A DNA stretch of 64,000 nucleotides from the NCBI GenBank assembly GCA_039802005.1, contig JBDRVV010000001.1:92352-156351 (forward strand), in the 5' to 3' direction. The first letter of the stretch is position 1; each line of letters opens with the position of its first letter. The DNA is from a candidate division WOR-3 bacterium. GTDB lineage: Bacteria; Hydrothermota; Tepidihabitantia; SM23-42; JAOAFX01. The notes beneath the pieces were generated by a model. It was not told where the DNA came from. It ran no database searches and saw nothing but the letters and a program-made list of their open reading frames with translations. This document shows positions 30,167 to 59,160 of the stretch, piece by piece. Both the position numbers and the translations under genes were made by a program.

Positions 30167-30260
30167 GGAGGCGGATGGGTGCTGGTGTGCCTGACGGGCT
30201 TCAAACCCGGTTATCCCTCGAAAGGGGGATGGTAGGTTCGATTCCTACACGCCTCCGCCA
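30167..30260 (+). tRNA. selC: tRNA-Sec (anticodon TCA), selC
   Basis: Long class II tRNA with acceptor GGAGGCG/CGCCTCC, anticodon loop CTTCAAA (TCA) on stem GACGGG/CCCGGT-like pairing, a very long variable arm (TATCCCTCGAAAGGGGGATG) and T arm TAGGTTCGATTCCTA. Discriminator G at 30257 and an encoded CCA at 30258-30260. The last 16 bases lie on the opposite strand of the 3' end of selB. With SelA and SelB next to it, the organism inserts selenocysteine at some UGA codons. Confidence 0.95.
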
Positions 30261-41532: not shown

Positions 41533-41550
41533 TTCTGAACGAACCTGAAA

Positions 41551-41577
41551 GGGGGTGGTGAAGGCCACCCCTTTTTT
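41551..41577 (+). terminator. Rho-independent terminator
   Basis: GGGGTGG (41552-41558), loop TGAAGG, CCACCCC (41565-41571), then TTTTTT. It closes the propeller gene and insulates the his-aro operon. Confidence 0.88.
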
Positions 41578-41599: not shown

Positions 41600-41627
41600 T
41601 TGACAATAATGAATTTTTGAATATACT
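41600..41627 (+). promoter_or_regulatory. Promoter of the his-trp-tyr-aro supercluster
   Basis: TTGACA (41600-41605), 16 bp, TATACT (41622-41627), then 6 nt to a GTG at 41634, the spacing seen at other leaderless genes in this window. Confidence 0.8.
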
Positions 41628-41633
41628 TGCATC

Positions 41634-41771
41634 GTGGTTAAGATTTTAATGGATAAAAAAGTTCTCACCGATTGCTCTTTAAGGGCAATATCGGATATTA
41701 ATTGTCTTAACCACAACCACACTACATTCCACTTTAATCATTACTGGTATTGGCACTTCCGGGCCCAATAA
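41634..41771 (+). CDS. Leader peptide rich in His, Phe, Tyr and Trp codons (attenuator peptide)
   Basis: A 45-codon frame from GTG 41634 (or 40 codons from ATG 41649) to TAA 41769-41771. Starting at 41712 it reads HNHTTFHFNHYWYWHF: within 16 codons there are five His, three Phe, two Tyr and two Trp. The rest has no such bias. These are exactly the end products of the 17 genes downstream. There is no Shine-Dalgarno, but the GTG lies 6 nt after the -10 box, as at the leaderless gene starting at 27905. The last codons (His, Phe, Arg) form the 5' arm of the hairpin at 41745-41809. I infer a ribosome-mediated transcription attenuator. The frame and codon bias are seen directly; the mechanism is inference. 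Confidence 0.88.
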   Translation: MVKILMDKKVLTDCSLRAISDINCLNHNHTTFHFNHYWYWHFRAQ

Positions 41772-41816
41772 GGGTCAATAAATCCTTTTTGGTCCCGGAA
41801 GTGCAACCACTTTTTT
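41745..41816 (+). terminator. Attenuator hairpin of the his-aro operon
   Basis: GCACTTCCGGG (41753-41763) pairs perfectly with CCCGGAAGTGC (41794-41804). Inside it CCAATAAGG pairs with CCTTTTTGG with one mismatch. At the base TGG and TT (41745-41751) can pair with AACCA (41805-41809), followed by C and six T (41811-41816). A competing 9-bp pairing joins the transcript's first bases GTGGTTAAG (41634-41642) with CTTAACCAC (41706-41714), which covers the first His codon. AACCAC recurs at 41805-41810, so alternative structures are possible. Confidence 0.82.
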
Positions 41817-41892
41817 ACCACATACAAAAACCATAAACTTTAAAAAATAAAAAAACAAATCTTTAGAATTATTTAAACGAAAGGAGGTTTGA

Positions 41893-42747
41893 TTGAAGAG
41901 ATTGAAAATTGTCATTCCTAAAGGCAGTATCTTTGAGAACGTGATCAGACTTTTTAATGATGCCGGGATTTATATCAACATTGGTGAAAGGGTGTATAGG
42001 CCGTTCGTTAATGACCCTGAACTTCAAATAAAGATACTGAGGCCGCAGAATATACCGGATTTGATTGAGATCGGTTCGCATGACGCTGGGTTTACGGGTA
42101 AGGATTGGGTTATAGAATCTAATGCAGATGTGATTGAGGTTATGGATTTGAAATTAGACCCGGTAAAGATTGTCTCAGCGATTCCTGAAGATGCAGACAT
42201 TGCCACTTTGCATAAAAAGATAATAATAGTTGCGTCAGAATACGAAAGGTTGACGAAGAATTTTTTGAAAAAAGAGGGATTCAAATACAAATACCTGCGG
42301 ACCTATGGAGCAACAGAAGTCTTTCCGCCTGAAGACGCTGATATGATAATTGATAATACTGCCACAGGAAATACATTGAAAGAACACAAATTGAGAGTAT
42401 TTAAGGTAATTATGGAATCAACTACGAGATTTATAGTTGGTAAAAGAACACTTAAAGACCCCTGGAAATGCAATAAGATTGAAGAACTGAAAATGCTTTT
42501 TCAGGCAGTGCTTGACGCACGAGAAAGGGTAATGCTTGAAATGAATGTGCCCAGAGATAAATTTGATAAGATAGTAAAAATTCTTCCCTGTATGCGTTCA
42601 CCAACCGTTGCACCATTGTATGGAGAAAAAGGATTTGCGGTAAAAGTTGCGGTAAAAAAGAGTGAGGTTGTGAAATTAATTCCTAATTTAAAAAGGCTTG
42701 GTGCTACTGATATCCTTGAGTATGAATTCAGGAAGGTTGTAGTATGA
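41893..42747 (+). CDS. hisG: ATP phosphoribosyltransferase HisG (long form)
   Basis: 284 residues with a TTG start 7 nt after GGAGG. IVIPKGSIFENVIRLF opens the catalytic domain; DMIIDNTATGNTLKEHKL is the PRPP region. The C-terminal ~75 residues (from about 210) form the ACT-like regulatory domain of long-form HisG, which binds histidine, so no HisZ is needed. It catalyses the first step of histidine synthesis. It overlaps hisC by ATGA. Confidence 0.94.
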   Translation: MKRLKIVIPKGSIFENVIRLFNDAGIYINIGERVYRPFVNDPELQIKILRPQNIPDLIEIGSHDAGFTGKDWVIESNADVIEVMDLKLDPVKIVSAIPEDADIATLHKKIIIVASEYERLTKNFLKKEGFKYKYLRTYGATEVFPPEDADMIIDNTATGNTLKEHKLRVFKVIMESTTRFIVGKRTLKDPWKCNKIEELKMLFQAVLDARERVMLEMNVPRDKFDKIVKILPCMRSPTVAPLYGEKGFAVKVAVKKSEVVKLIPNLKRLGATDILEYEFRKVVV

Positions 42748-43802
42748 TAAATATTAAGGAAGCGATAATTACATTGCCTGCTTATGAAGTCCCCCAGCAG
42801 GCAAGGATAAAACTGAATCAGAATGAGTCTCCTTATGATATACCCGTTGAATATAAAAAAGAGATATTTAGCAGACTACAGAGGATACCCTGGAATCGCT
42901 ATCCGGTTGAGAATCCCGAAGGATTAAAGAGAGAACTTTCTGATTATACTAATTACCCTGCGGATGGAATTGTTGTCGGGAATGGTTCCAATGAATTGAT
43001 ACTTGCGATTATGCTTGCTATTTGCAATAAAGGAGATACCATTACCGTTATAAAGCCGGGTTTTGCAATTTATTCATATCTTGCGCGGGTTCTACAATTG
43101 AAGGTTGACCAGGTACCATTGAAAAGTGATTTCACATTTGATGTAAAGGCATTCTGTCGTAGCGCATATAATTCAAAATTGGTAATCTTCGCATCACCAA
43201 ATAATCCAACTGGTACTGCAATGGATATTGATGGGATAGAAGAGGTTGTGAAAATGAAGAAATGTATAGTAGCTGTGGATGAGGCGTATTATGAATTTCA
43301 TAGATTGACCTGTCAGAAACTGCTTGACAGATACCGCAATCTTATAATTCTCAGAACTTTTTCTAAAGCATTTGGCATTGCTGGAATAAGGCTGGGCTAT
43401 TTGCTCTGCCAGTCTGAAGTTGCAAAACAACTTGTCAAGGCAAAACTTCCATTTTCCGTTGGAATATTCCAGCAGATATCTGCGCAATATTTGCTTACAA
43501 AAAAACGATTTTTTTATGCGACGGTGCAGAAGATTGTTGCTGAGAGAGAAAATGTCTTCAATAAATTGAAGGATATTTCTGGTATAGTTCCAATTCCATC
43601 TCGAGCAAATTTTATTCTTTTTGGGATAAAAAATAGTTCATCAGTCCGACTTTTTGAAGAACTTTATAAAAGAGGAATTCTCGTTCGCAGATTTAGTGAT
43701 CCTGCTTTAGAGAATATGTTGAGGGTAACCATGGGAAAACCAGAGGAGAATAAGGAATTTATAAAAGTAATGAAACAATTAATGAAAAAAATTGGGGGTT
43801 AA
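42744..43802 (+). CDS. hisC: Histidinol-phosphate aminotransferase HisC
   Basis: 352 residues. Opening KLNQNESPYDIP, GNGSNELILAIM, FASPNNPTGTAMD, PLP lysine in RTFSKAFGIAGIRLGY and final GILVRRF are diagnostic. HisC enzymes also often transaminate aromatic amino acids; since no other aromatic aminotransferase is in the cluster, it may serve Tyr/Phe synthesis too (inference). Confidence 0.94.
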   Translation: MINIKEAIITLPAYEVPQQARIKLNQNESPYDIPVEYKKEIFSRLQRIPWNRYPVENPEGLKRELSDYTNYPADGIVVGNGSNELILAIMLAICNKGDTITVIKPGFAIYSYLARVLQLKVDQVPLKSDFTFDVKAFCRSAYNSKLVIFASPNNPTGTAMDIDGIEEVVKMKKCIVAVDEAYYEFHRLTCQKLLDRYRNLIILRTFSKAFGIAGIRLGYLLCQSEVAKQLVKAKLPFSVGIFQQISAQYLLTKKRFFYATVQKIVAERENVFNKLKDISGIVPIPSRANFILFGIKNSSSVRLFEELYKRGILVRRFSDPALENMLRVTMGKPEENKEFIKVMKQLMKKIGG

Positions 43803-43803
43803 A

Positions 43804-44388
43804 ATGCGTAAATCTGAGATAAAACGCAAAACAAAAGAGACCGATATTACAATTAAATTAAAGATTGAAGGTACTGGAAAAAGCACTATTGATTCTCCTA
43901 TAGGATTTTTTAAACATATGCTTGAGACATTAGCCAAACACAGCGGATTTGATATTGTAGCAAGAATAAAGGGAGATATTGAAGTTGACCAGCACCACAT
44001 CATTGAAGATACGGGTATCTGTTTAGGTCTTGCATTAAACAAAGCGCTTGGTGATAAAAAAAGTATGAATCGCGTTGGGTTTTTTATCCATCCAATGGAC
44101 GAGGCACTGGCAATGGCGTCGTTAGATATATCGGGGAGGACTTTCTTAAAATTCTCGGGGAATTTCAAAAAGCAAAGAGTCGGCGATTTACAGACAGATT
44201 CAATTGAAGATTTCTTTGCAGGATTTACAAATGGTTGTCCCTGTACATTACATATCAAATTGTTTTCAGGGAGGTCTGATCACCACAAGATTGAAGCGAT
44301 ATTCAAGGCATTTGCCAGGGCACTGAGCCAGGCATGTTTGATTAATAAAAAAATAAAAGACATTCCGAGCACAAAGGGTGTCTTATGA
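43804..44388 (+). CDS. hisB: Imidazoleglycerol-phosphate dehydratase HisB
   Basis: 194 residues from the ATG at 43804; a TTG at 43792 is in frame but overlaps hisC. Metal-binding repeats FFKHMLETLAKHSGFD, DQHHIIEDTGI, and SGRSDHHKIEAIFKAFARAL are all present. It is the single-domain form without a histidinol-phosphatase half. Confidence 0.94.
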   Translation: MRKSEIKRKTKETDITIKLKIEGTGKSTIDSPIGFFKHMLETLAKHSGFDIVARIKGDIEVDQHHIIEDTGICLGLALNKALGDKKSMNRVGFFIHPMDEALAMASLDISGRTFLKFSGNFKKQRVGDLQTDSIEDFFAGFTNGCPCTLHIKLFSGRSDHHKIEAIFKAFARALSQACLINKKIKDIPSTKGVL

Positions 44389-44981
44389 TTGGCATAATAG
44401 ATTATGGTGCAGGCAATATTCATTCGGTTAAGAATGCGCTTGATTTTCTTAAATTCAAAAATTGCATAATAAAAGAGCCTGAAGATATGAAAATTGCAGA
44501 TAGGATTATCCTGCCCGGGGTCGGTGCCTTTGGTTTCGCTGTGAAAAAACTTAAGCAAACAGGACTATTTGAAAAAATCATGGAATGGCTTAAAAGAGAC
44601 CGTCCCTTTCTGGGAATATGCCTTGGTCTTCAGTTATTATTTGAATCAAGCGAAGAGTCAAAAAAAATTAGAGGATTTGGCATATTTAAAGGCTGCATAA
44701 AAAGATTTGATGAAAATAAAGTTCCCCAGATCGGATGGAATAATGTTGATATTCTTAAAAAATCACGAATCTTTCATTTTAGAAAAAGTCAATTTTTTTA
44801 CTTTCTCCATAGTTATTATGTAGATACACCAGAAAAGGAACTGATCGTTGGCATTACTGAATACGGCATAAAGTACCCATCAGTAATTAACCGAGATAAT
44901 ATCTATGGGGTTCAGTTCCATCCTGAAAAGAGTGGAAGGGTCGGTCTTGCATTATTAAAGAACTGGGTGGAAAGATGTTGA
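44385..44981 (+). CDS. hisH: Imidazole glycerol phosphate synthase, glutaminase subunit HisH
   Basis: 198 residues. IIDYGAGNIHSV N-terminus, nucleophile Cys in LGICLGLQLLFE and the His-Glu pair in GVQFHPEKSG form the triad of class I glutaminases. It supplies ammonia to HisF, whose gene overlaps it by 7 bp. Confidence 0.95.
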   Translation: MIGIIDYGAGNIHSVKNALDFLKFKNCIIKEPEDMKIADRIILPGVGAFGFAVKKLKQTGLFEKIMEWLKRDRPFLGICLGLQLLFESSEESKKIRGFGIFKGCIKRFDENKVPQIGWNNVDILKKSRIFHFRKSQFFYFLHSYYVDTPEKELIVGITEYGIKYPSVINRDNIYGVQFHPEKSGRVGLALLKNWVERC

Positions 44982-45730
44982 CCGTAAGAATTATCCCCTG
45001 TCTTGATGTGGATAAGGGACGGGTCGTGAAAGGAATAAGATTCAAAAATTTAAAGACGGCTGGAGACCCTGTAGAATTTGCCCGATACTACAATGACCAG
45101 GGTGCAGATGAACTTGTATTTCTTGATATCACCGCCTCTTTTGAGCGTAGAAAGACTATGGTAGATATTGTAAATGAAGTGGCAAAGAATGTCTTTATAC
45201 CATTTTGTGTTGGTGGTGGTATTAGGAATGTAGATGATATGCGCAATCTGTTAAATGCTGGTGCGGACAAGATTGCAATCTGCACTGCAGGGATACAAAA
45301 CCCGGCTTTGATAAGAGAAGGTGCGGTGCTATTCGGTTCCCAGTGTATAGTCGTTTCAATTGATGCAAAGAGGGTAAAGAATGGATGGCATTGTTATACA
45401 CACGGTGGAAGGTTTGATTCGGGCATTGATGTTCTAAAATGGGCGAAAGAATGTGAGAGGCTTGGTGCCGGCGAGATTTTACTGAATTCCATTGACCGCG
45501 ATGGGACAGAAAAGGGCTACGATATTGAATTGACAAGGGCAATAAGTTCCATTGTGAAAATTCCGGTTATTGCCTCGGGTGGTGCAGGGAATTTAGAACA
45601 GGTTTATGAGGTCGTAAAATATGGAAAGGCAGATGCAGTGCTTTTCGCATCAATCCTACATTTTAAAAAATATACGATCAAGAAAATAAAAAATTTTCTT
45701 TCAAAAAAAGGAGTTAATGTAAGATGGTAA
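44975..45730 (+). CDS. hisF: Imidazole glycerol phosphate synthase, cyclase subunit HisF
   Basis: 251 residues, TIM barrel. Catalytic Asp in [19 protein letters not shown], second Asp in [15 protein letters not shown], and phosphate loops [10 protein letters not shown] and [11 protein letters not shown]. It joins with HisH to make IGP and AICAR. Overlaps hisAI by 7 bp. Confidence 0.95.
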
Positions 45731-46716
45731 TAGGGTCTATAGATTTAATGGACGGAAAGGTCGTCCAATTAAGACAGGGTAGAGAGAAAATTCTTGAGTT
45801 TGATGATGCCCTAAATTTTGCAAAGGAATTCAATAAATACAATGAGGTTGCAGTGATTGACCTTGATGCCGCAATGGGCAGCGGTGATAACCTGAGTACC
45901 ATTAAAGAATTATTAAGGGTGGCTGATTGTCGTGTTGGAGGTGGCATAAGAACAATTGAAAAGGCTAAAGAATTGATTGACTATGGTGCAAATAAAATAA
46001 TTATTGGTTCAAAGGCATTTGAAGAGAAGAAGATTAATCACGAATTTCTTTCTGCCTTGAAACAAAAATTGGGAAAGGATAAAATTGTGATTGCACTTGA
46101 TACATACAATAGTAAAGTGGTTGTGAGTGGCTGGAGAGATTACACCGGTATAGACCTTTTTGATGTAATAAAAGAATTTGAACCATATACAAACGAATTT
46201 CTCTTTACATTTATAGAAAGCGAAGGAATGATGCAGGGTATTGATATTGCGAAGGCAAAAAAAATTCGTGAGAAGACCGATAGAAAGATAGTGGTAGCGG
46301 GTGGGGTATCTTCAGTAAGTGAAGTAAAAATCCTTGCTGAAATGAGTATTGATGTTCAGTTGGGAATGGCATTGTATACAAAAAGAATTTCACTCGCTGA
46401 TGCATTTATAGAATCATTGAATTGGAAAAACGAATTGATTCCAACTATAGCTCAGGACATATCGGGTGCTGTATTGATGCTTGCGTATTCAAATAAGGAA
46501 TCATTGAGAAAGATATTTGAGACCGGTAATATGTGGTATTTTTCAAGAAGCAGACAGGAGTTATGGTTTAAAGGCAAGACATCAGGCAATATACAAAATT
46601 TAATTAAATTAAGAGTTGATTGCGACCGCGATGCGATCCTCGCGGTTGTAAGACAGAATGGCAATGCCTGCCATAACGGAAATTTTTCCTGTTTCAATAT
46701 AAGGAGGCCAGAATGA
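45724..46716 (+). CDS. hisAI: HisA-HisI fusion: ProFAR isomerase plus phosphoribosyl-AMP cyclohydrolase
   Basis: 330 residues, longer than HisA alone (~240). Residues 1-235 are His[17 protein letters not shown] with the catalytic Asp, [23 protein letters not shown] and [11 protein letters not shown]. From about 238 a full HisI cyclohydrolase domain follows: [20 protein letters not shown], metal-binding DCDRDAI, and [12 protein letters not shown]. There is no stop or frameshift between. HisI is usually alone or fused to HisE; a fusion to HisA is unusual. HisE itself is absent here. Confidence 0.92.
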
Positions 46717-47759
46717 ACTACGAGCATAAGAAAATTACTGAGACAATAAAAAAATTGGTTGATAACCAATCCTTAAGTGAAAAAGAATCTTATGATATTT
46801 GTACAATGATAATGGATGGCAAAGTATCACCGGCACAGATTGGTTCCTTGCTCACTGCACTCAGGATCAAGGGCGAAACGGTTGATGAAATAACTGGATT
46901 TTGCAGGGCAATGCGTGAGAAGATGGTATCAATTAAACCTTCCGCAACTACAATAATTGATACTTGTGGTACCGGTGGCGATGGCATGCGCACCTTCAAT
47001 ATATCAACAACCTCGGCATTTATTGCCGCGGGGGCAGGTTGTTTTGTGGCAAAACACGGCAACCGGTCAGTTTCAAGTCTCTGTGGAAGTGCTGATTTAA
47101 TATCAGGACTCGGAATCAAGATTGAACTTGAGCCAGAATTGGTAAAAGAGTGTATTGATAATATTGGTGTTGGGTTTCTCTTTGCTCCATTATTCCATCC
47201 TGCAATGAAATATGCAGTCGTGCCGCGGAAAGATATCGGTATCAGGACAATCTTCAACTTATTAGGTCCGTTATGTAACCCGGCAGGTGTAAAGAATCAG
47301 ATTATTGGTGTGTGCAGGAAAGAATTTATGGAAAAAATCGCAAAGGCACTAATAAATCTAAATATCGAAAGGGCACTGATTGTATATGGTGGTGACGGGC
47401 TTGATGAGATAACGACCACCACCAAAACATATGTTTTGGAGATAAAACATGGCAATATGACAGATTACGAAATTTCACCTGAAGAATTTGGTATGAAAAG
47501 GTGCCGTATGGAGGATTTGGTAGTGAACGATAATAAAGAAAATCTTGAGGTATTTATGTCAATTTTAGAGGGCAAACCAGGTGCTAAAACCGATACCGCC
47601 GTATTAAATGCAGGTGCCGCAATATATATTGCGGGAAAGGCTGAGTCTATTAAAGATGGGATTGAAATTGCGCGGCAATCAATATTGTCGGGTTCGGCAT
47701 TGAATAAACTAAAAGAATTAAGGAGGTTTGTAAATGAACATGCTAAGCGTGATAATTGA
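46713..47759 (+). CDS. trpD: Anthranilate phosphoribosyltransferase TrpD
   Basis: 348 residues. Diagnostic [20 protein letters not shown] (phosphate loop), [16 protein letters not shown] and [17 protein letters not shown]. Second step of tryptophan synthesis. trpE and trpG, which make its substrate, are not in this window. ATGA overlap with hisAI. Confidence 0.95.
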
Positions 47760-48507
47760 GGAAACAAAAAAAGATTTATACAAAAAAAAGAGTCAACATC
47801 CGATGGAACATTTTTTAAAAGCCACCAATAAGATCAAAAATGATTTTAAAAAGATTTTTAAAGAGAAATCACTGGCACTGATTGCTGAGATAAAAAATGC
47901 ATCTCCATCAACCGGAATAATCAGGGATGATTTGAATCCGGAAAAAGTTGCCCGTATTTATGAATCAGCAGGTGTGAATGCTATATCGGTCGTAACTAAC
48001 GAGAAGTTTTTTAAAGGGAAAAAAGAATATATTGAAATAGTAAAGAAATCAACAACCCTACCAGTTCTGAGAAAGGATTTTATCATTGATGAGTATCAGA
48101 TTTACGAATCATACGCGGTAGGTGCTGATGCAATACTATTCATTAGTTGTATATTGCCACCTGTAAAGTTAAAAAAATTTGTAAAACTCGCTCACAAACT
48201 TAGTATGGCGACAATTGTAGAGATTCATACAATTAATGATTTAAAAAAGGCATTAGATACAGAAACCGAGATAATCGGTATTAACAATCGGAATCTGAAT
48301 AATTTTTCAGTTGATATCAATAACTCTCTGCACCTGATACAGAAAGTGCCAGAACATTATTACACGGTTAGTGAAAGTGGAATAAAAGATCAGGATGATG
48401 TGCAAAAGTTGAAAAACGCTGGTTTTGATGGTTTGCTTGTGGGAACTTCTATCTTAAAGGCAGATAATATGGTAGCAAAAATAAAGGAACTAAAATGGAT
48501 AAATTAA
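47734..48507 (+). CDS. trpC: Indole-3-glycerol phosphate synthase TrpC
   Basis: 257 residues. The start at 47734 is supported by AGGAGG with 7-nt spacing, inside the end of trpD. Motifs: LIAEIKNASPSTGIIRDD (catalytic Glu/Lys), LPVLRKDFIIDEYQIYE, INNRNLNNFSVD, SESGIKDQDDVQKL and GLLVGTSIL. TIM-barrel enzyme of tryptophan synthesis. Confidence 0.95.
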   Translation: MNMLSVIIEETKKDLYKKKSQHPMEHFLKATNKIKNDFKKIFKEKSLALIAEIKNASPSTGIIRDDLNPEKVARIYESAGVNAISVVTNEKFFKGKKEYIEIVKKSTTLPVLRKDFIIDEYQIYESYAVGADAILFISCILPPVKLKKFVKLAHKLSMATIVEIHTINDLKKALDTETEIIGINNRNLNNFSVDINNSLHLIQKVPEHYYTVSESGIKDQDDVQKLKNAGFDGLLVGTSILKADNMVAKIKELKWIN

Positions 48508-49583
48508 GCTCTTTAAGGAAAGAAATAAAAAAATTGGATCGTAAAATATTAAAATTAATCCAAAATCGAATGATATTAAGTGAAAAGATTGGCAAAATAA
48601 AGAAAAAGAATGATATCCCACTTTTGGATTGGAGTGTGGAAAAAGAGGTGATTAACAATGCAATTCAATATGCTGAAGAACATAATCTTAATAAAAACTT
48701 TGCCCGAGCAATCATCACTAAAATAATTGAATACTCCAGAATCGGGCAGGAAAGACTGCATTTTTCAGCATATTCAGGAAAAAGAGAAGATATACTCATC
48801 GTAGGGGGACTGGGTGGAATGGGACGCTGGTTTGCTTATTTCTTTCAGAATCAGGGGCACAGGGTGTCGATCAATGACTTAAAAAGTTCTGGTCTCCCTA
48901 ATTTTAAATATTATCGTAATCTTGAACAGGCATTAAAGGAAAAATCAATTGTTATTATTGCTACACCTCTATCAACCGTGCCCGCTATTATTGAAAAAAT
49001 TGCTAAATTAAAATGCGATTCGGTGGTTTGTGATATTGCGAGTGTTAAGAGTCATATAATCCCCGCGATAAAGAAGGCAATGCAGAAAGATATTAAAATT
49101 ACAAGTATTCATCCAATGTTTGGCCCTGCCTGTCATACCTTGAGTGATAAGATTATCTGTCTATGCGATTGCGGTTCTCCAGAGGCGAATAATAAAATTT
49201 TGGGTCTTTTTAAAGATACCGCAGCAAGACTTATTAAACTTCCATTTGATGAACATGATAAGCGCATTGCTTATGTCCTCGGACTCTCCCATTTCTTGAA
49301 TATTCTTTTTGCTAAGTGTCTTATAAATAGTGGTTATACAATAAAAGATTTAGAAAATATTGCCAGCACTACATTTAATGCCCAGTTAGAGACAACGAAG
49401 AGCGTGATCAAAGAAAATCCAGAACTTTATTATGAAATCCAGGCGCTAAACCCCTATAATGATGATTTATTTAGCAATTTAAAAGTCTGTGTTGACTCAT
49501 TGGTGGAGACGATTAAAGCCGGTAAAAAGTATGCATTTATAGATATTTTTAAAGAAGGGAGCAGGTGGCTTGGTCAGTATTAA
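48495..49583 (+). CDS. tyrA: Chorismate mutase / prephenate dehydrogenase TyrA
   Basis: 362 residues. Residues 1-90 form an AroQ-type chorismate mutase helix domain (LRKEIKKLDRKILKLIQNRM, VEKEVINNAI). From about 97 comes a dinucleotide-binding fold IVGGLGGMGRWFAYFF. SIHPMFGPACHTLSDKI holds the catalytic His region. This is the bifunctional T-protein layout, leading to tyrosine. No pheA (prephenate dehydratase) is nearby. Overlaps trpC and trpF. Confidence 0.93.
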   Translation: MDKLSSLRKEIKKLDRKILKLIQNRMILSEKIGKIKKKNDIPLLDWSVEKEVINNAIQYAEEHNLNKNFARAIITKIIEYSRIGQERLHFSAYSGKREDILIVGGLGGMGRWFAYFFQNQGHRVSINDLKSSGLPNFKYYRNLEQALKEKSIVIIATPLSTVPAIIEKIAKLKCDSVVCDIASVKSHIIPAIKKAMQKDIKITSIHPMFGPACHTLSDKIICLCDCGSPEANNKILGLFKDTAARLIKLPFDEHDKRIAYVLGLSHFLNILFAKCLINSGYTIKDLENIASTTFNAQLETTKSVIKENPELYYEIQALNPYNDDLFSNLKVCVDSLVETIKAGKKYAFIDIFKEGSRWLGQY

Positions 49584-50193
49584 GATAAAAATCTGCGGAA
49601 TAACCAATCTTGATGATGCATTAATGGTATCAAAATTTGGAGTTGATGCTTTGGGTTTTATCTTTGCTCCATCTCCGAGAAATATTGAGCCTGTGATTGC
49701 AAAAAATATTATCCGGAAGCTTCCTCCTTTTATAATAACGGTCGGAGTATTTAAAGACCAAGAACTTGAACTGGTAAATAAAGTGGTTCGTTTAACCGGG
49801 ATTGATGTAGTTCAGTTACATGGTTCTGAATCCCCGGAATACTGCAGGTTCATAAAGAATGCCCGAATAATCAAGAGGATTAAAATTGATGATGATAAAG
49901 TAAAAGTGAAGAAAGTTATTAGTGATATTGATAAATATTCGGTAGCAGGCTATCTATTTGATCCTGGAGAAGGAAGTGGTAAGGTATTCGATTGGAACAT
50001 GGTAAAAGGAGTAGGAGGTAACATAATCATCGGTGGTGGACTTAATCAAGACAATGTAAAAGATATGATTGGTTTATTGAAACCTTATGGAGTTGATGTG
50101 TGTTCCGGAGTAGAAAAATTTCCCGGGAAAAAAGACCCAACAAAAGTTAAAGAATTTATAAAAGAGGTGAGGAAATGTTCATTACAGGTGTGA
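49570..50193 (+). CDS. trpF: Phosphoribosylanthranilate isomerase TrpF
   Basis: 207 residues with a TTG start overlapping tyrA by 14 bp. KICGITNLDDALMVSKFGVDALGFIF has the catalytic Cys; the catalytic Asp is in LFDPGEGSGKVFDW. Phosphate loop IIGGGLNQDNV. Third step of tryptophan synthesis. No strong ribosome-binding site, so translation may be coupled. Confidence 0.94.
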   Translation: MVSIKIKICGITNLDDALMVSKFGVDALGFIFAPSPRNIEPVIAKNIIRKLPPFIITVGVFKDQELELVNKVVRLTGIDVVQLHGSESPEYCRFIKNARIIKRIKIDDDKVKVKKVISDIDKYSVAGYLFDPGEGSGKVFDWNMVKGVGGNIIIGGGLNQDNVKDMIGLLKPYGVDVCSGVEKFPGKKDPTKVKEFIKEVRKCSLQV

Positions 50194-50954
50194 TTGGTTA
50201 TCCTTTAAAAATGACTTTTTCTCCACTACTCCATAATAATGCATTTATACATTTGGGCTTGAGTGGACAATATTTTCCGTTATCTGTTCCAGAGCAGGAT
50301 TTTGAAACGATAATCAAAACTATTAAAAAACTAAAATTCGCAGGGTTAAATATAACCAATCCGTATAAAATGAGAATTTTGAAATATCTTGATGGAGTAA
50401 GTCCAGTAGCGAAGAAAATCGGTGCGGTGAATACGGTGGTTATTAGAAAAAATAAATTATTTGGTGAGAATACAGATATCTACGGGTTTGATAAGTCGCT
50501 TAAAGAACACAATATAAATATTACTGGGAAAAAAATAATGCTTATCGGTGCGGGCGGGGTTGCCCGGGCAATCGCCTATGTAATTTTTAGAAAAAAACCA
50601 CAGTCTTTTTTCATTACAAACCGCACAAAAATAAAATCTCTATATCTTACAAAAAAATACAATGGCCAGCCAATAGATTTTAAAGATATTTTCACTATCA
50701 TACGAAATGTTGATGTAGTAATAAATGGAACATCAATTGATATTCATAATTTAATCTTCCCTCATATGAAAGATGGAAGTGTGTATTATGACACTAATTA
50801 TCGTTTTAATTTATTGAACTCACAAAATATATTGGTGGTTAATGGAATCACAATGTTGGTTTACCAGGCGGCATTTTCATTCAGTATCTGGACTGGAAGA
50901 ATGCCGCCGGTAAACATAATGAAGAATGCAATCAAGGAGGTGCAGATTGGTTAG
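50175..50954 (+). CDS. aroE: Shikimate dehydrogenase AroE
   Basis: 259 residues; GAGG lies just before the ATG. GYPLKMTFSPLLHNNAF (substrate site), GLNITNPYKM with the catalytic Lys, AVNTVV, and NADP motif LIGAGGVARAIAYV with FITNRTK. Fourth step of the shikimate pathway. Overlaps trpF by 19 bp. Confidence 0.94.
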   Translation: MFITGVIGYPLKMTFSPLLHNNAFIHLGLSGQYFPLSVPEQDFETIIKTIKKLKFAGLNITNPYKMRILKYLDGVSPVAKKIGAVNTVVIRKNKLFGENTDIYGFDKSLKEHNINITGKKIMLIGAGGVARAIAYVIFRKKPQSFFITNRTKIKSLYLTKKYNGQPIDFKDIFTIIRNVDVVINGTSIDIHNLIFPHMKDGSVYYDTNYRFNLLNSQNILVVNGITMLVYQAAFSFSIWTGRMPPVNIMKNAIKEVQIG

Positions 50955-52014
50955 AATCTTAACGGCTGGTGAATCCCATGGGCCAGGATTGACAGCGATA
51001 ATAGATGGGATGCCGGCAGGCATAAAAATAGAGGTTGATTTTATAAACAAAGAATTAAAAAGACGTCAATCCGGTATGGGCAGAAGTGAAAGGATGAAGA
51101 TAGAAAATGATGAGATTGAAATCATTTCTGGTGTTAAAAACGGAAAAACGATTGGTTCGCCTATCACGCTTTTTATAAGAAATACCGATTACCGAAAAGC
51201 CCATTTTTTATTAGAAAAGAAAAAAGACAAAGTGGTTACAATTCCAAGACCGGGGCACGCAGACCTGCCGGGTCTATTAAAATTTGGTTTTTTTGATATT
51301 CAAGATGTTCTGGAAAGGGCTTCCGCAAGAGAAACCGCTATGAGGGTTGCAGCGGGCGCTGTTTTTAAAATTTTTTTGAATGAGTTTGAGATCAATATTG
51401 GTTCAAGGGTTGTCTCAATTGGTTCTGCAAAAAAGAAAAACCAGTTCTTGAATTTAATAAAAAGGGCACAAAAAATCGGTGAAACAGTTGGTGGGATTGT
51501 TGAAGTTTATGCTGATAATGTATGCCCTGGACTTGGAAGTTATACACAATTTGACAAAAGACTTGATGCATTGATTGGGCTGGCAATGCTGTCAATACCA
51601 TCGGTAAAAGGAATTGAAATAGGCGAGGCAATAAAAAGTACTATTATTTTTGGCTCAAAATTCCACGATGAAATATTTTTTAGTAAAAACAATGGTTTCT
51701 ATAGAAGGACGAATAACGCAGGTGGAATTGAAGGGGGCGTAAGCAATGGCGAAAGGATTTTGATAAGGCTCTATGCAAAACCAATTCCTACCCTCGGGAA
51801 TCCTTTGTATTCGGTTGATATAAAGACCAAAAAAAGAACTTTAGCTCCAAAACCCAGGGCGGATGTATGCGTTGTCGAATCAATTTGCGTGATTGCTGAA
51901 GCAATGCTTGCGTATGTTATCGCCTCTGCAATTTGTGAAAAATTTGGAGGTGATTGTCTTGCCGATATAAAAAAGAATTATCGTTTTTATCAAAAGAGGA
52001 TAAAGAATGTCTGA
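50947..52014 (+). CDS. aroC: Chorismate synthase AroC
   Basis: 355 residues. TTG at 50947 is preferred to an in-frame ATG at 50926, because AAGGAGG lies 6 nt before the TTG and homology begins RILTAGESHGPGLTAI. Other signatures: RRQSGMGRSERM, RPGHADLPGLLKFG, RASARETAMRVAAGA and NNAGGIEGGVSNGE. FMN-dependent last step to chorismate. Confidence 0.94.
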   Translation: MVRILTAGESHGPGLTAIIDGMPAGIKIEVDFINKELKRRQSGMGRSERMKIENDEIEIISGVKNGKTIGSPITLFIRNTDYRKAHFLLEKKKDKVVTIPRPGHADLPGLLKFGFFDIQDVLERASARETAMRVAAGAVFKIFLNEFEINIGSRVVSIGSAKKKNQFLNLIKRAQKIGETVGGIVEVYADNVCPGLGSYTQFDKRLDALIGLAMLSIPSVKGIEIGEAIKSTIIFGSKFHDEIFFSKNNGFYRRTNNAGGIEGGVSNGERILIRLYAKPIPTLGNPLYSVDIKTKKRTLAPKPRADVCVVESICVIAEAMLAYVIASAICEKFGGDCLADIKKNYRFYQKRIKNV

Positions 52015-53557
52015 AAATATCATTTTAACAGGATTTATGGGTTCGGGCAAGGATACCATAGGAAGATTGCTCGCAAGTAGATTAAATATGGGTTTTATTT
52101 CCACTGACCAAATGATTGAACTGGCTGAGCAGAAGTCGATTAAAAAGATTTTTGAAGAGAAGGGCGAAGTTTATTTCCGAAAAAAAGAAAAATGGGTGAT
52201 TGAGAAGATAAAGGGATTGAAAAATGTTGTTATAGCCACCGGTGGCGGTATGGTGATTGATATGAAAAACAGAAAAGAATTGCAAAAAATGGGAAATGTG
52301 ATACAACTATCAGCAAATATTGAAACCTTGAAAAAAAGGATTATCACCAATGGAGAAAGACCGTTGATAAGAAATGTTTTTGACATTGATAGATTATACA
52401 GAAAAAGAAAGGGTATATATGACTTTGCCAAGATAAAGATTGATAATTCAGAAAAAAAGCCAGAAATGGTTGTAAATAAGATTATTGAAGAACTGAATTT
52501 TGAAAAACCTCAATCGTTTAAAGAAAAAGCAGAGATACGAATTAAAACGAAATTAAAAAATTACCCGGTAATCATTGGTTATGATATTATGGAGCATTTA
52601 CCCATTTTTAATAATAAGGTGGTGATAATCACAAATCCACTGGTGGGCACACTTTATATGAACGAACTCATAAATTATCTCAAAAAAGGAAATAATGAAA
52701 TAGATTATTTTATCATCCCGGATGGAGAGGAATTTAAGAATTTTGATACTGTGGAGAAAATATATGACTTTCTTTTTAGGACCAATTTCCAGCGACAAAA
52801 TTTTATAATAAGTTTAGGGGGTGGTGTTATCACGGATATTGCAGGTTTTGTTGCATCCACATTCAAAAGGGGATGTAGAGTAATCCATATTCCGACAACA
52901 CTTCTCTGCCAGGTAGACGCAGCAATCGGTGGTAAGACTGGTATAAACACAGATTACGGCAAAAATATGCTGGGTACATTTTACCAGCCTGAACTCGTCC
53001 TATGCGATTTGAAAAAATTACTAACCCTTTCGGACAAAGAATTTTTAAACGGTATCGCCGAAGTCATAAAATATAGTATAATACATTCCAAAAGATTGTT
53101 TTACATTCTTCAAAAAAAGAAAGAACAGGTCAAAAATCGCAATTTACAGCTCTTATTTGAGATTGTGAAGGCGTGTGTATCTATAAAGGGTGTGATAATA
53201 AATCAAGATGAAACCGAAGAAAAGGGGATAAGGGAGATTTTAAATTTTGGTCATACAATCGGACATATCATTGAAACGATAACGAATTATAATATCTATT
53301 CCCATGGTGAGGCAATATCAATGGGAATGGTTGAAGAAATGAAACTATTTGGCAGAAAAATAAACGAGATGCGCGAAGTTAAAGAACTGCTGAAGGAATA
53401 TTGCCTACCAATATATGTGCCGTGTGATCTTAAAAACAAGATGAAGAAATTAATCTCACATGATAAGAAAATGAAAGGTAAATATATAACCATCGCTGTT
53501 TTTGAAGGGATTGGCAAAATAAAGATAAAGGAGGTTTTATGCAGAAAATTCTTTTAA
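52007..53557 (+). CDS. aroKB: AroK-AroB fusion: shikimate kinase plus 3-dehydroquinate synthase
   Basis: 516 residues. Residues 1-165 are shikimate kinase (GFMGSGKDTIGRLLASRL P-loop, FISTDQMIE, FRKKEKWVIE, ATGGGMV). From about 175 a 3-dehydroquinate synthase follows: IPDGEEFKNFDTVEKIYDF, SLGGGVITDIAGFVASTFKRG, IPTTLLCQVDAAIGGKTGIN, and zinc ligands in FLNGIAEVIKYSI, FGHTIGHIIE and SHGEAISMGM. The same fusion is known in Thermotoga. Both active sites look intact. Confidence 0.94.
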   Translation: MSENIILTGFMGSGKDTIGRLLASRLNMGFISTDQMIELAEQKSIKKIFEEKGEVYFRKKEKWVIEKIKGLKNVVIATGGGMVIDMKNRKELQKMGNVIQLSANIETLKKRIITNGERPLIRNVFDIDRLYRKRKGIYDFAKIKIDNSEKKPEMVVNKIIEELNFEKPQSFKEKAEIRIKTKLKNYPVIIGYDIMEHLPIFNNKVVIITNPLVGTLYMNELINYLKKGNNEIDYFIIPDGEEFKNFDTVEKIYDFLFRTNFQRQNFIISLGGGVITDIAGFVASTFKRGCRVIHIPTTLLCQVDAAIGGKTGINTDYGKNMLGTFYQPELVLCDLKKLLTLSDKEFLNGIAEVIKYSIIHSKRLFYILQKKKEQVKNRNLQLLFEIVKACVSIKGVIINQDETEEKGIREILNFGHTIGHIIETITNYNIYSHGEAISMGMVEEMKLFGRKINEMREVKELLKEYCLPIYVPCDLKNKMKKLISHDKKMKGKYITIAVFEGIGKIKIKEVLCRKFF

Positions 53558-53997
53558 TAAATGGTCCTAATTTAAATCTTCTGGGCAAGAGAAATCGATT
53601 TTTTTACGGGGATTTATCGCTTAAAGAAATAAATGAGAAAATTCTTAACCATGCAAAGCAGATGGGAATAATGGTTGATATATACCAATCAAATTCCGAG
53701 GGTGCGATAATTGAAATCATACAGAATGCGGAAGGATATGATGGACTCATTATAAATCCTGGTGCCTACACCCATACTTCGGTAGCAATAAGGGATGCAA
53801 TTGAGTCGGTTGGTATTAAAACGATAGAGGTTCATATCAGCAATATCTATGCTCGAGAATCATTCAGACACAAAAGTTTTATTGCACCAGTATGTATCGG
53901 GCAAATAGCGGGGCTGGGTTGGTATGGATATATTCTGGCAATTGAATTTTTTATTCATTTTCATTACGGAGAAGAAAATGTATCGCCAGCCGAATAA
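53539..53997 (+). CDS. aroQ: Type II 3-dehydroquinate dehydratase AroQ
   Basis: 152 residues. [13 protein letters not shown], catalytic Tyr in [50 protein letters not shown] and the final [11 protein letters not shown] are diagnostic. AAGGAGG lies 7 nt upstream, inside aroKB. Third step of the shikimate pathway. Confidence 0.95.
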
Positions 53998-55165
53998 AAG
54001 TGGTTATTTCGGAATATTTGGTGGTAGATTTATACCTGAAACATTGATGCCGGCATTGATAGAACTTGAGAAGGCTTATAGAAATTTTAAAAATAATAGT
54101 GAATTCAAAAGAGAATTAAATTTTTATTTAAAACATTATGCTGGCAGGCCGACACCACTATACTTTGCAAAAAATTTATCAGAAAAGATGAATGGGGCAA
54201 GGATATTTTTCAAACGGGAGGATCTTCTTCATACCGGTGCCCATAAGATAAATAATACAATCGGTCAGGTTTTGCTTGCAAAGAAAATGGGCAAAAAAAG
54301 AGTAATCGCTGAGACCGGTGCCGGACAGCATGGTGTTGCCACTGCGACTGCCTGTGCCCTTTTAGGATTGAAATGTATTGTATATATGGGGAAAAAAGAT
54401 ATGAGTAGACAGAAGATGAATGTCTTGAAAATGAGGCTTCTTGGTGCCGAAGTTATTCCTGTAAATAGTGGAACAGAGACCCTGAAAGACGCAATAAATG
54501 AGGCAATAAGGGATTGGGTTACAAATATCAAGACCACCCATTATTGTATTGGCTCGGTTGTGGGACCACATCCCTACCCAATGCTTGTGCGTGATTTCCA
54601 AACGGTAATAGGCAAAGAAGTAAAAATACAGATAAAAAAAATAGTGGGTAGATTACCCGACCTACTCATTGCCTGTGTTGGCGGTGGAAGTAATGCCCTT
54701 GGCTTCTTCTATCCATTTTTAGATACAAGTGTAAAGATGTTAGGGGTTGAGGCCGGTGGGTTTGGTATACATACAAAGAGACATTCTGCAACACTATCTT
54801 GTGGAACGGTCGGAGTTCTACATGGAGCAATGAGCCTTGTTCTACAGAATAAATACGGGCAGATTATGTCTGCTCATTCCATTGCCCCGGGGCTTGATTA
54901 TCCAGGAGTCGGTCCGGAGCACTCCTTTCTAAAAACAAGCAAGATAGTAAATTATACAACCTGCACCGATAGGCAGGCGATTAAGGCATTTAAAATTCTA
55001 TCGGAAACCGAAGGGATTATCCCCGCCTTAGAAAGTTCTCATGCCCTTTATATTGCAATCCAGAAGGCAAAAGAAATGGACCGAAAAAAAATTATAGTTG
55101 TTAACCTTTCGGGCAGGGGTGATAAAGATTTAGAGATTGCGGAGGAATTTTATGAGCGCGATTAA
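53978..55165 (+). CDS. trpB: Tryptophan synthase beta subunit TrpB
   Basis: 395 residues from the ATG at 53978 (GGAGAAG upstream); the frame is open further upstream but homology starts [16 protein letters not shown] lysine in [32 protein letters not shown], and [12 protein letters not shown]. Canonical TrpB1 type. It overlaps aroQ by 20 bp and trpA by 14 bp. Confidence 0.95.
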
Positions 55166-55919
55166 AGAAAGATTTAAAATACTTGAAGAAAATAACGAAG
55201 CAGCGCTCATCGCATATCTAACTGCTGGATATCCCACACTTGAAAAATCAATGAGATACATTCAGACAATTGGGAAATATGCTGATATAATTGAAATCGG
55301 TATTCCTTTTTCAGATCCGATTGCAGATGGTAAAGTGATACAACATGCTTCACAAATTGCCCTGGAAAAAGGGACAAATTTATTTTCTATATTTGGCGCA
55401 CTTGCAAAGATAAGGATTGATAAACCCCTTGTGATTATGTCCTATTTGAATCCATTGCTCTCTTTCGGTATTGATAGATTCTTTATGGAAAGCAGTAAGA
55501 TCGGTATTTCAGGTGTGATTGTGCCGGACCTTGTGGTTGAAGAGACGGGATTATTAAAAAAATATGCTCATAAATACTCAATTGATCTGATTCAACTAAT
55601 TGCACCTACATCAAATAAGGATAGAATAAATTTGATTGGTAAAATTTCTGATGGCTTTGTCTATTGCGTATCTATAACCGGTACAACAGGGATGAAAAAA
55701 AGTCTGCCTGATACACTTCCATTATTTATTCAGAGGGTGAAATCAATGGTGGATAAACCCGTGGTTGTAGGATTTGGAATATCAAGAGCAAGTCAAATAA
55801 AAGAACTGTGTAGATTTGCAGACGGCGTGGTAATAGGCAGTCGGATAATTGAGGCAATTAAAAACCGTGAGGATATGAACGCATTGTTGAAAAGTTTTAA
55901 AAGGTCCACAATTAGATGA
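55152..55919 (+). CDS. trpA: Tryptophan synthase alpha subunit TrpA
   Basis: 255 residues from ATG 55152 with GGAGG 6 nt upstream. [21 protein letters not shown] holds one catalytic acid; the second is in [21 protein letters not shown] and [11 protein letters not shown] are phosphate-loop regions. It makes indole and passes it to TrpB. Confidence 0.95.
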
Positions 55920-55971
55920 ATTTATATTTTGATATTTGTGACCTTTGAATAATCTATGTAAAGGAGGTTTT

Positions 55972-56982
55972 ATGCTCGTTGTTATGCATAAAGATGCAAC
56001 ACAAAGACAGATACGAAAAGTTTGTAAACTAATAAAGGAAATGGGACTAACACCCCACCCAATAAAAGGTGCCCAGCGTGTAGCAATCGGCATAACCGGT
56101 AATAAAGAAATGGTTGATACAAGAAGGATAGAAAATCTGGAGGGTGTAATAAATATCATTCATGTTACACAACCTTATAAATTGACCGGCAGAGAAATGA
56201 AGCCCGATGATACAAAAATAAAGATTGGTAATGTGGTGATTGGTGGTAAAAAGGCAGTAATCATTGCTGGTCCCTGTGCTGTGGAGTCTGAAAGGCAGAT
56301 GATTAATATTGCCAGGGCAGTGAAGTCAATCGGTGCTGATATGCTACGGGGTGGGGCATTCAAACCGAGGACATCCCCATACTCATTCCAGGGACTGGGT
56401 GAAGAAGGGCTGAAGATACTTGCTCGGGCAGGTAAAGAAAACAAACTGCCAGTCGTATCTGAGGTAGTTGATACAGAAATGTTTTCGCTTGTTGAAGAAT
56501 ATGTTGATGTAATTCAAATCGGAGCAAGGAATATGCAGAATTATGCCCTGCTAAAAAGGGCGGGTAAAAGTAAAAAACCAATATTATTAAAAAGGGGGAT
56601 GGCTTCAACAATCCAGGAATTTCTACTTGCCGCAGAATATATTATGTCTGAAGGGAATTATAATGTTATTCTCTGCGAACGGGGGATAAGGACTTTCAGT
56701 GATTTTACAAGATTTACGCTTGATATTAGTAGTATTCCTGAACTCAAGAAAATATCACATCTGCCTGTTATTGTGGACCCAAGCCATGCGTCAGGAAAAA
56801 GAGATATGGTATTGCCACTTTCAAGGGCGGCGATTGCTGCAGGTGCAGATGGAATCATAGTTGAAGTTCACAACAATCCTGAAAGGGCACTTTCTGATGG
56901 CCCGCAATCTTTAACAATAAAAGGGTTTGAGATTTTAATGAATGAAATAAAAACGATTGCAAATGCAATCAACAGAATTTAA
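55972..56982 (+). CDS. aroF: DAHP synthase, type I-beta, with N-terminal regulatory domain
   Basis: 336 residues from ATG 55972, chosen for AAAGGAGG 6 nt upstream. Residues 1-75 form a ferredoxin-like (ACT-like) domain, as in Thermotoga maritima DAHP synthase, where it gives feedback inhibition by Tyr/Phe. The barrel has AGPCAVESERQM, RGGAFKPRTSPYSFQGLG, KRGMASTIQEFLLAAEY and PVIVDPSHASGKRDMV. First step of the shikimate pathway, placed last in the operon after a 52-nt gap. Confidence 0.95.
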   Translation: MLVVMHKDATQRQIRKVCKLIKEMGLTPHPIKGAQRVAIGITGNKEMVDTRRIENLEGVINIIHVTQPYKLTGREMKPDDTKIKIGNVVIGGKKAVIIAGPCAVESERQMINIARAVKSIGADMLRGGAFKPRTSPYSFQGLGEEGLKILARAGKENKLPVVSEVVDTEMFSLVEEYVDVIQIGARNMQNYALLKRAGKSKKPILLKRGMASTIQEFLLAAEYIMSEGNYNVILCERGIRTFSDFTRFTLDISSIPELKKISHLPVIVDPSHASGKRDMVLPLSRAAIAAGADGIIVEVHNNPERALSDGPQSLTIKGFEILMNEIKTIANAINRI

Positions 56983-58937: not shown

Positions 58938-58961
58938 CACTTTTCCTTTTTTAAATATAAT
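58934..58961 (+). promoter_or_regulatory. Promoter upstream of the cobalamin riboswitch
   Basis: TTGACA (58934-58939), 16 bp, TATAAT (58956-58961). Transcription should begin near 58968. Confidence 0.78.
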
Positions 58962-58967
58962 CGTCTG

Positions 58968-59160
58968 CTGAGGGATGTAAGGGAAGTGCCGTGAAAATCG
59001 GCCGCAGTCGCCGCTACTGTAACCCCAACCTTTTCCAAAAGAAAAGGGACTCTTTTAGCATTTAAAAGCCACTGCCCTTTTGGGTGGGAAGGCTGCTAAA
59101 AGAGTGGGGAAGCCAGGAGACCTATCCCCAGTAAATAGGGAAGTCCTTCGGACGAAAGGA
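58968..59160 (+). ncRNA. Cobalamin (B12) riboswitch
   Basis: The leader has the cobalamin-element landmarks: GGGAAGTGCCGTGAAAATCGGC, then GCAGTCGCCGCTACTGTAA (core), and GAAGCCAGGAGACCTA (B12 box). Between them a long arm pairs GGGACTCTTTTAGCA-like and TGCTAAAAGAGTGGGG sequence. It ends at a small GTCC-TTCG-GGAC hairpin and the AAAGGAGG of the receptor gene, so control of translation initiation is likely. B12 would switch the receptor off. Confidence 0.92.

Follow-up and report, generated by a model that had tools for sequence, protein, structure and literature searches.

The window, a 64-kb stretch of DNA from a candidate division WOR-3 bacterium, includes a 17-gene operon on the + strand (41893..56982), read by NCBIfam as hisG-hisC-hisB-hisH-hisF-hisA/I-trpD-trpC-tyrA(CM)-trpF-aroE-aroC-aroKB-aroQ-trpB-trpA-aroF, with several of the names coming from matches below the curated cut-off of the best model. 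Among them are hisA fused to hisI, a chorismate mutase/prephenate dehydrogenase, aroK-aroB, and, as the last gene, a DAHP synthase. Between hisG and a promoter (TTGACA-16-TATACT, 41600..41627, +; an 11/12 match) is a 45-codon reading frame running from GTG at 41634 to TAA at 41771 (+), open throughout, with the translation VVKILMDKKVLTDCSLRAISDINCLNHNHTTFHFNHYWYWHFRAQ. Its C-terminal block, HNHTTFHFNHYWYWHF, contains 5 His, 3 Phe, 2 Tyr, and 2 Trp (12/16 residues) and runs into a hairpin (41753-41804), whose loop holds the stop codon. The sensor block as delimited here, LNHNHTTFHFNHYWYWHF (41706..41759, +), ends in a core, HYWYWHF (41739..41759, +), with all four amino acids; these are the codons at which a stalled ribosome should block folding of the hairpin, going by the 10-15 nt threshold of PMC4824070. 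Upstream of the promoter, a canonical intrinsic-terminator-like site (41547..41576, +), with its T-tract adjacent to the stem and accepted by a terminator scan, marks the operon border. Elsewhere in the window are a selenocysteine tRNA (30167-30256) with promoter-like sequence just before it, and a cobalamin riboswitch (58955-59143) upstream of a long frame (59169-60872) that by eye is outer-membrane receptor-like.

The original prediction, that codons for His, Phe, Tyr, and Trp make up a leader ahead of a his-trp-tyr-aro cluster, holds as to the open frame, its 12/16 composition, and the identities of the genes, and its positions for promoter, frame, and hairpin are those given above. Three further features were absent from it: a start codon at the predicted +1, a leader copy at a second operon, and pairing between the 5′ end and the sensor block.

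Leader frame and its start

None of 4000 dinucleotide shuffles of the region reached 12/16, and 12/16 is attained at three places in the 64 kb (59,748 open 16-codon windows, both strands), the leader included. The other two (3194 on the + strand and 54646-54652 on the − strand) lie within other frames of longer open frames and were discarded. The composition of the sensor block alone is thus not unique in the window; the weight is carried by its position and conservation.

Transcription usually begins at a set distance from the −10 box, and by this measure the start codon of the frame would itself be +1. The distance from −10 box to start codon is 6 nt in 9/9 leaders from six genomes, as is the −35/−10 spacer of 16; the start codon is GTG in the window's genus and ATG elsewhere. 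The transcript is therefore predicted to be leaderless, starting at the G of GTG. There is an in-frame ATG at 41649, but it has no counterpart in the first-operon leaders of two congeneric genomes, which keep GTG, so that GTG 41634 is the best start. We infer that the frame is translated. Two WOR-3 protein records carry close relatives of it under the name of a 45-aa hypothetical protein, one of them identical to the second-operon leader of a congeneric genome (G001) and the other one residue off that genome's first leader; a second protein search, with the leader alignment, returned the same two proteins as the first.

Allowing up to two mismatches, the pattern TTGACA-16-TATANT-6-RTG occurs 12 times in the window, where 2.0 occurrences are expected. 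Several longer open frames (2339, 15470 on the − strand, 21769, 27905 on the − strand, 36441, and 38106) also have a −35/−10 pattern with ATG or GTG 5-6 nt after the −10 box, which suggests that leaderless transcripts may be common in this genome.

Distribution and conservation

A second operon, aroF-pheA-aroA-trpE-trpG-hisD, lies on another contig of the window's own genome (L107 5158-11769; G000:C6) with a copy of the leader in front of it: GTG 6 nt after TATACT, 45 codons, an end reading FNHYWYWRFRAQ, and the same hairpin. Together the 17 and 6 genes account for the shikimate, Phe, Tyr, and Trp pathways and for the greater part of the His pathway, in a survey that did not extend to hisE or a histidinol-phosphate phosphatase. 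The second operon with its leader is also found in G001 and G002. The nearest named relatives are the candidate division WOR-3 genomes SKW300, 4484_100, Zod_Metabat.699, and Zod_Metabat.145.

Of 147 genomes of the WOR-3 phylum searched, 11 gave a hisG match. Six of these, namely the window's genome (G000), G001, G002, G024, G025, and G126, carry the his-trp-tyr-aro cluster, with the gene order unchanged over the extent of each contig or stretch; all 17 genes were recovered in G001, G002, and G126, 16 in G025, and seven in G024 before the contig ends. These six genomes hold the nine leaders. A seventh, G127, carries the cluster on a single contig, running from hisC to hisD and lacking hisG; this genome and G087 gave only weak HisG matches. 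A weak candidate frame following a promoter in G127, MINSIFLLKSKNLERRSLFIPPKREFFYLHFQITLLLKRKISL, contains Phe, Tyr, and His codons, no Trp, and has its ATG 9 nt past the −10 box; it was not counted as a leader, which leaves the leader in 6/7 genomes with the cluster.

Genes of the two operons form one contiguous cluster in G126 and in G127, where the trpA-aroF gaps of about 125 and 40 nt, respectively, are too short for such a leader. Two contig ends of G024 are compatible with a single cluster, and no pheA match was found there. Because these relatives hold the genes as one cluster, an ancestral single cluster with one leader was probably split in the window's genus, the second half receiving a copy of the leader; we infer this order of events from the gene arrangements. 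By eye, the two leaders of G001 (L149 200-371 and L002 1244-1413) are closer to each other than are those of the G000 or G002 pair, as if converted within the genome.

A comparison of the leader among relatives, as the original prediction had proposed, bears it out: in the last 12 codons, change is mostly synonymous. Among codon pairs of the six congeneric leaders, this part has 154 identical, 21 synonymous, and five nonsynonymous, all five being a single His-to-Arg change in the second-operon leader of the window's genome. For codons −22 to −13, which make up the block's upstream half, the counts are 61 identical, seven synonymous, and 82 nonsynonymous pairs, and for the spacer 24, 18, and 228. 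Within the genus, then, the last 12 codons are conserved, and drift affects both the spacer and the block's upstream half; despite this drift the length of 45 codons is kept in 6/9 leaders, the others having 46, 38, and 56. Since the last codons overlap an arm of the hairpin, part of their conservation may be due to it. Outside the genus the same residues are found before the hairpin in different DNA: FVYFFNYFWHPGH in G025, NHFEHHYWYWRF in G024, and YYVYPYIFYYSWWH in G126.

Genomes and loci of other kinds were surveyed for comparison. Three WOR-3 genomes (G083, G085, and G086) have hisG with a distant hisC and no trp or aro match on 4.3-12 kb; in all three, the 244-450 nt upstream of hisG contain no such leader. 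One frame upstream of hisG in G083 reaches 7/16, in a block without Trp, and was not counted. The 75 hisG loci from outside the phylum (80 loci minus five from WOR-3) include two with an upstream stretch shorter than 150 nt. A frame with four or more His in eight residues occurs within 400 nt at 16 of the 75, mostly in spirochaetes, and one locus has a four-residue frame, at 8/16, which resembles a piece of a membrane protein. Operon content was inspected at eight of these loci; at one of them, L026, trp genes lie ~4 kb downstream of the his genes. In these surveys the four-residue leader was seen only alongside the merged cluster, and elsewhere hisG has a His-run leader or none of this kind. 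The pattern HYWYW occurs at 18 places in 13 of the 147 WOR-3 genomes, seven of which are leaders (two each in G000, G001, and G002, and one in G024); the remaining 11 are excluded by their frames.

Hairpin, T-runs, and pairing of the 5′ end

The hairpin (E:F; 41753..41804, +) overlaps the end of the leader frame. It has a perfect 11-bp stem, 41753-41763 with 41794-41804, and is a 21-bp hairpin with the inner pairs counted; in leader coordinates the stop is at nt 136 and the stem at 120-130/161-171. The fold of 41634-41820 has z = −7.7 (200 shuffles). A hairpin is found in 9/9 leaders, weaker in G025 and G126. No Rfam family, T-box or other described RNA, matches at the gathering threshold within 41600-41900.

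The original prediction had a T-tract following the hairpin, which does not hold in general. In the window a T6 tract (41811..41816, +) starts 6 nt past the 11-bp stem, and the terminator scan does not score the hairpin as terminator-like. An extension of the stem to 41745-41809, also part of that prediction, would add TGGT/ACCA and does bring the tract within 1 nt, but by eye these pairs are not kept in G001. Across the leaders, 4/9 have a run of at least five T within 10 nt of the stem (gaps of 5, 6, 7, and 10), never adjacent to it, and in G126 the run is 14 nt away. Within 30 nt of the hairpin there is no T-run in the three second-operon copies (G000_2, G001_2, and G002_2) or in G024, and the second-operon copies lack even a run of four T.

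No antiterminator was found: by duplex energies, none of the 8-16 nt segments upstream of the 5′ arm in six leaders is a competitive partner for it, the best in the window leader reaching −6.1 vs. −21.3 kcal/mol for E:F. By eye, TATTGG and CCAATA could pair in the window leader, but changes in G002 break this pairing, and a pairing of the 5′ end with ACCAC past the T-tract, also by eye, is too short to distinguish from chance; both were set aside.

In most leaders a pairing is possible between the 5′ end and the sensor block. Arm A (41634..41643, +), which contains the start codon, can pair with arm S at the head of the block (41705..41714, +; Leu-Asn-His codons). In 7/9 leaders the first 20 nt, start codon included, pair better than shuffled 5′ ends, only 1 to 20 of 500 doing as well; the advantage is less clear in G126 (41/500) and absent in G002_2 (138/500). 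The partners are the Leu-Asn-His codons in four leaders of the genus, the YWYW codons in G024, and the block head in G025. Because four of the seven leaders are near copies of each other, there are about four independent cases. None of 31 pairs in the congeneric alignment has a compensatory double change, and this alignment thus lends the helices no covariation support.

Possible mode of action

Attenuation is the textbook case of an operon measuring its own product, and the leaders of ilvGMEDA, ilvB, and thr carry codons for two to three related amino acids. In those, as here, one leader would serve several products of its operon; theirs share a pathway, whereas the WOR-3 leader would combine His with the aromatic family. 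The His and aromatic pathways do have PRPP use and aminotransferases in common. As described in PMC9413887 and PMC1183508, enterobacterial hisL, trpL, and pheL are likewise short frames rich in codons for the product, acting through ribosome stalling and a terminator hairpin; each addresses one amino acid, in contrast to the four amino acids of two pathways here, and the WOR-3 leader differs further in a hairpin that overlaps the frame, the lack of a detectable antiterminator, and a predicted leaderless start.

Single elements of this arrangement have precedents. Codon runs (Ile, Val, Leu) overlap a candidate terminator hairpin in actinobacterial ilvB, whose mode of regulation is also called unclear in PMC1262725; that leader is branched-chain only, is followed by a poly-U run, and belongs to another phylum. 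In Sinorhizobium meliloti (PMC7298713) the trpL transcript begins at the start codon of the leader peptide and is leaderless, but it is a Trp attenuator of 14 residues starting with ATG, and the WOR-3 5′ end is only predicted. The mycobacterial upstream small frames described in PMC4633059 are rich in cysteine only, unlike the four-residue leader. Leaderless leader peptides, leaders overlapping hairpins, and leaders for two to three related amino acids are thus already known. The authors of PMC2965389 knew of no demonstrated leader-peptide systems outside Proteobacteria and Actinobacteria, and add Firmicutes to these. Among the matches listed in a literature search (subscription papers being mostly outside it), none described a leader with the His and aromatic combination, and none an attenuator in the WOR-3 phylum.

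The leader is probably a ribosome-mediated attenuator answering to His, Phe, Tyr, and Trp of two pathways, in front of both operons, in which a ribosome stalled in the core covers the 5′ arm of the hairpin. At HYWYWHF the ribosome would wait for whichever charged tRNA of the four is lacking; by covering the arm it would allow RNA polymerase to continue into the operon, and starvation would raise expression. Left free, the hairpin would fold and end transcription. With no ribosome loaded, the 5′ end could pair with the sensor block and hide the start codon, so that the leader would probably be closed, in an off state.

Escherichia coli pyrBI has a comparable overlap of hairpin and leader gene, its terminator lying inside a 135-bp leader gene on which the ribosome acts directly, although it answers UTP via polymerase pausing and involves no amino-acid sensing, as set out in PMC4824070. 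That paper also argues that termination near a stop codon becomes more frequent when translation is slower, and that in amino-acid attenuators the terminator is kept >20 bp past the end of the leader gene. The window hairpin begins before the stop codon; it overlaps the leader gene as in direct occlusion of the pyrBI type, and is a putative terminator.

The main argument for direct occlusion is that conservation in the peptide falls largely on the stretch from which a stalled ribosome would affect the hairpin. The original prediction placed a ribosome on the 5′ arm by slow translation anywhere in the block. This applies to the HYWYWHF core, which lies inside the hairpin or no more than 11 nt away, but not to the block as a whole: with a footprint of −15..+11, 4/5 His and 2/3 Phe codons of the window leader are upstream of the blocking zone. 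By the limits of PMC4824070, all four residues are within the zone in 8/9 leaders at 15 nt and 6/9 at 10 nt, where His is lost in G000_2 and G024 and only Phe remains in G126. Under the stricter footprint (−15..+11) all four are in the zone in 4/6 leaders, G024 being without His and G126 with only Phe.

Three points speak against a simple occlusion of a terminator. At the His and Phe codons further upstream, a stalled ribosome would leave the hairpin free; a well-fed ribosome pausing at the stop codon, which is in the hairpin loop, would also cover the arm; and 4/9 leaders have no T-run within 30 nt. In a kinetic version, which is possible, the upstream codons would delay the ribosome so that the arm is occupied as the 3′ arm emerges.

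The main rival keeps the same four-amino-acid sensor with a hairpin that is not a terminator, and instead hides a Rho loading region or protects the mRNA: after a stall upstream the hairpin would form and the operon would be on, and a fast ribosome would open the arm and expose the RNA to Rho. This has the correct sign for the upstream His and Phe codons and would account for the persistence of the hairpin in G024 and the three second-operon copies, which have no U-tract. Rho is encoded, and from hairpin to Shine-Dalgarno sequence C exceeds G in 8/9 leaders (107 C vs. 38 G summed), the ninth, G126, having 24 of each in a fixed 150 nt. The C excess is however a count over these leaders alone and not a contrast with the genome's other leaders; runs of 5-6 T do lie within 10 nt of the hairpin in 4/9 leaders; and no known example with such a sign is in hand, all of which leaves this version unlikely. 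Control of hisG translation, with sequence past the hairpin pairing to the Shine-Dalgarno sequence unless a ribosome disturbs it, is suggested by G025, where 11 bp can form between the T-rich ATCTCCTTTTT downstream of the hairpin and AGAAAGGAGGT of hisG (L008 2891-2946), and by G001_1, where one predicted stem extends up to the nucleotides directly preceding the Shine-Dalgarno core. At −8.7 kcal/mol, though, the G025 structure is weak, and inspection by eye of the window, G002, G024, and the second-operon copies brings out nothing comparable; we think such control very improbable.

The remaining alternatives do without sensing. If the short protein itself were functional, as a small aromatic peptide, its annotation as a 45-aa hypothetical protein and the near invariance of its 12 C-terminal residues in one genus would be expected. 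Across families, however, it is the residue classes and not the peptide sequence that are kept, the invariant end overlaps a hairpin arm that constrains the DNA, and all nine copies precede his/aromatic operons, which makes a peptide function highly improbable. Least credible is chance, an AT-rich intergenic stretch rich in Phe and Tyr codons beside an ordinary hairpin: 12/16 is indeed reached at two other places in the window, but nine conserved leaders, synonymous drift in the last 12 codons, a fixed promoter-start distance, and the fold at z = −7.7 would all have to be coincidental.

Returning to attenuation by a ribosome stalled in the core, its fullest form would be a four-input OR gate, a proposal we hold in even balance: through one leaderless frame, shortage of any of His, Phe, Tyr, or Trp would turn on the histidine and aromatic programme, by a ribosome sitting on the hairpin, with no antiterminator and in some copies no U-tract. 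The sensor would have been duplicated when an ancestral 22-gene cluster split, keeping both halves under four-way control.

If the attenuator reading is true, two separate pathways have one sensor in common. The leader would also be a test case for attenuation by direct ribosome occlusion, with a leaderless start and no antiterminator. The pair of operons amounts to a natural experiment, the cluster being in two pieces in one genus with the leader on both, and its presence on both halves suggests that joint control of His and aromatic synthesis has itself been selected.
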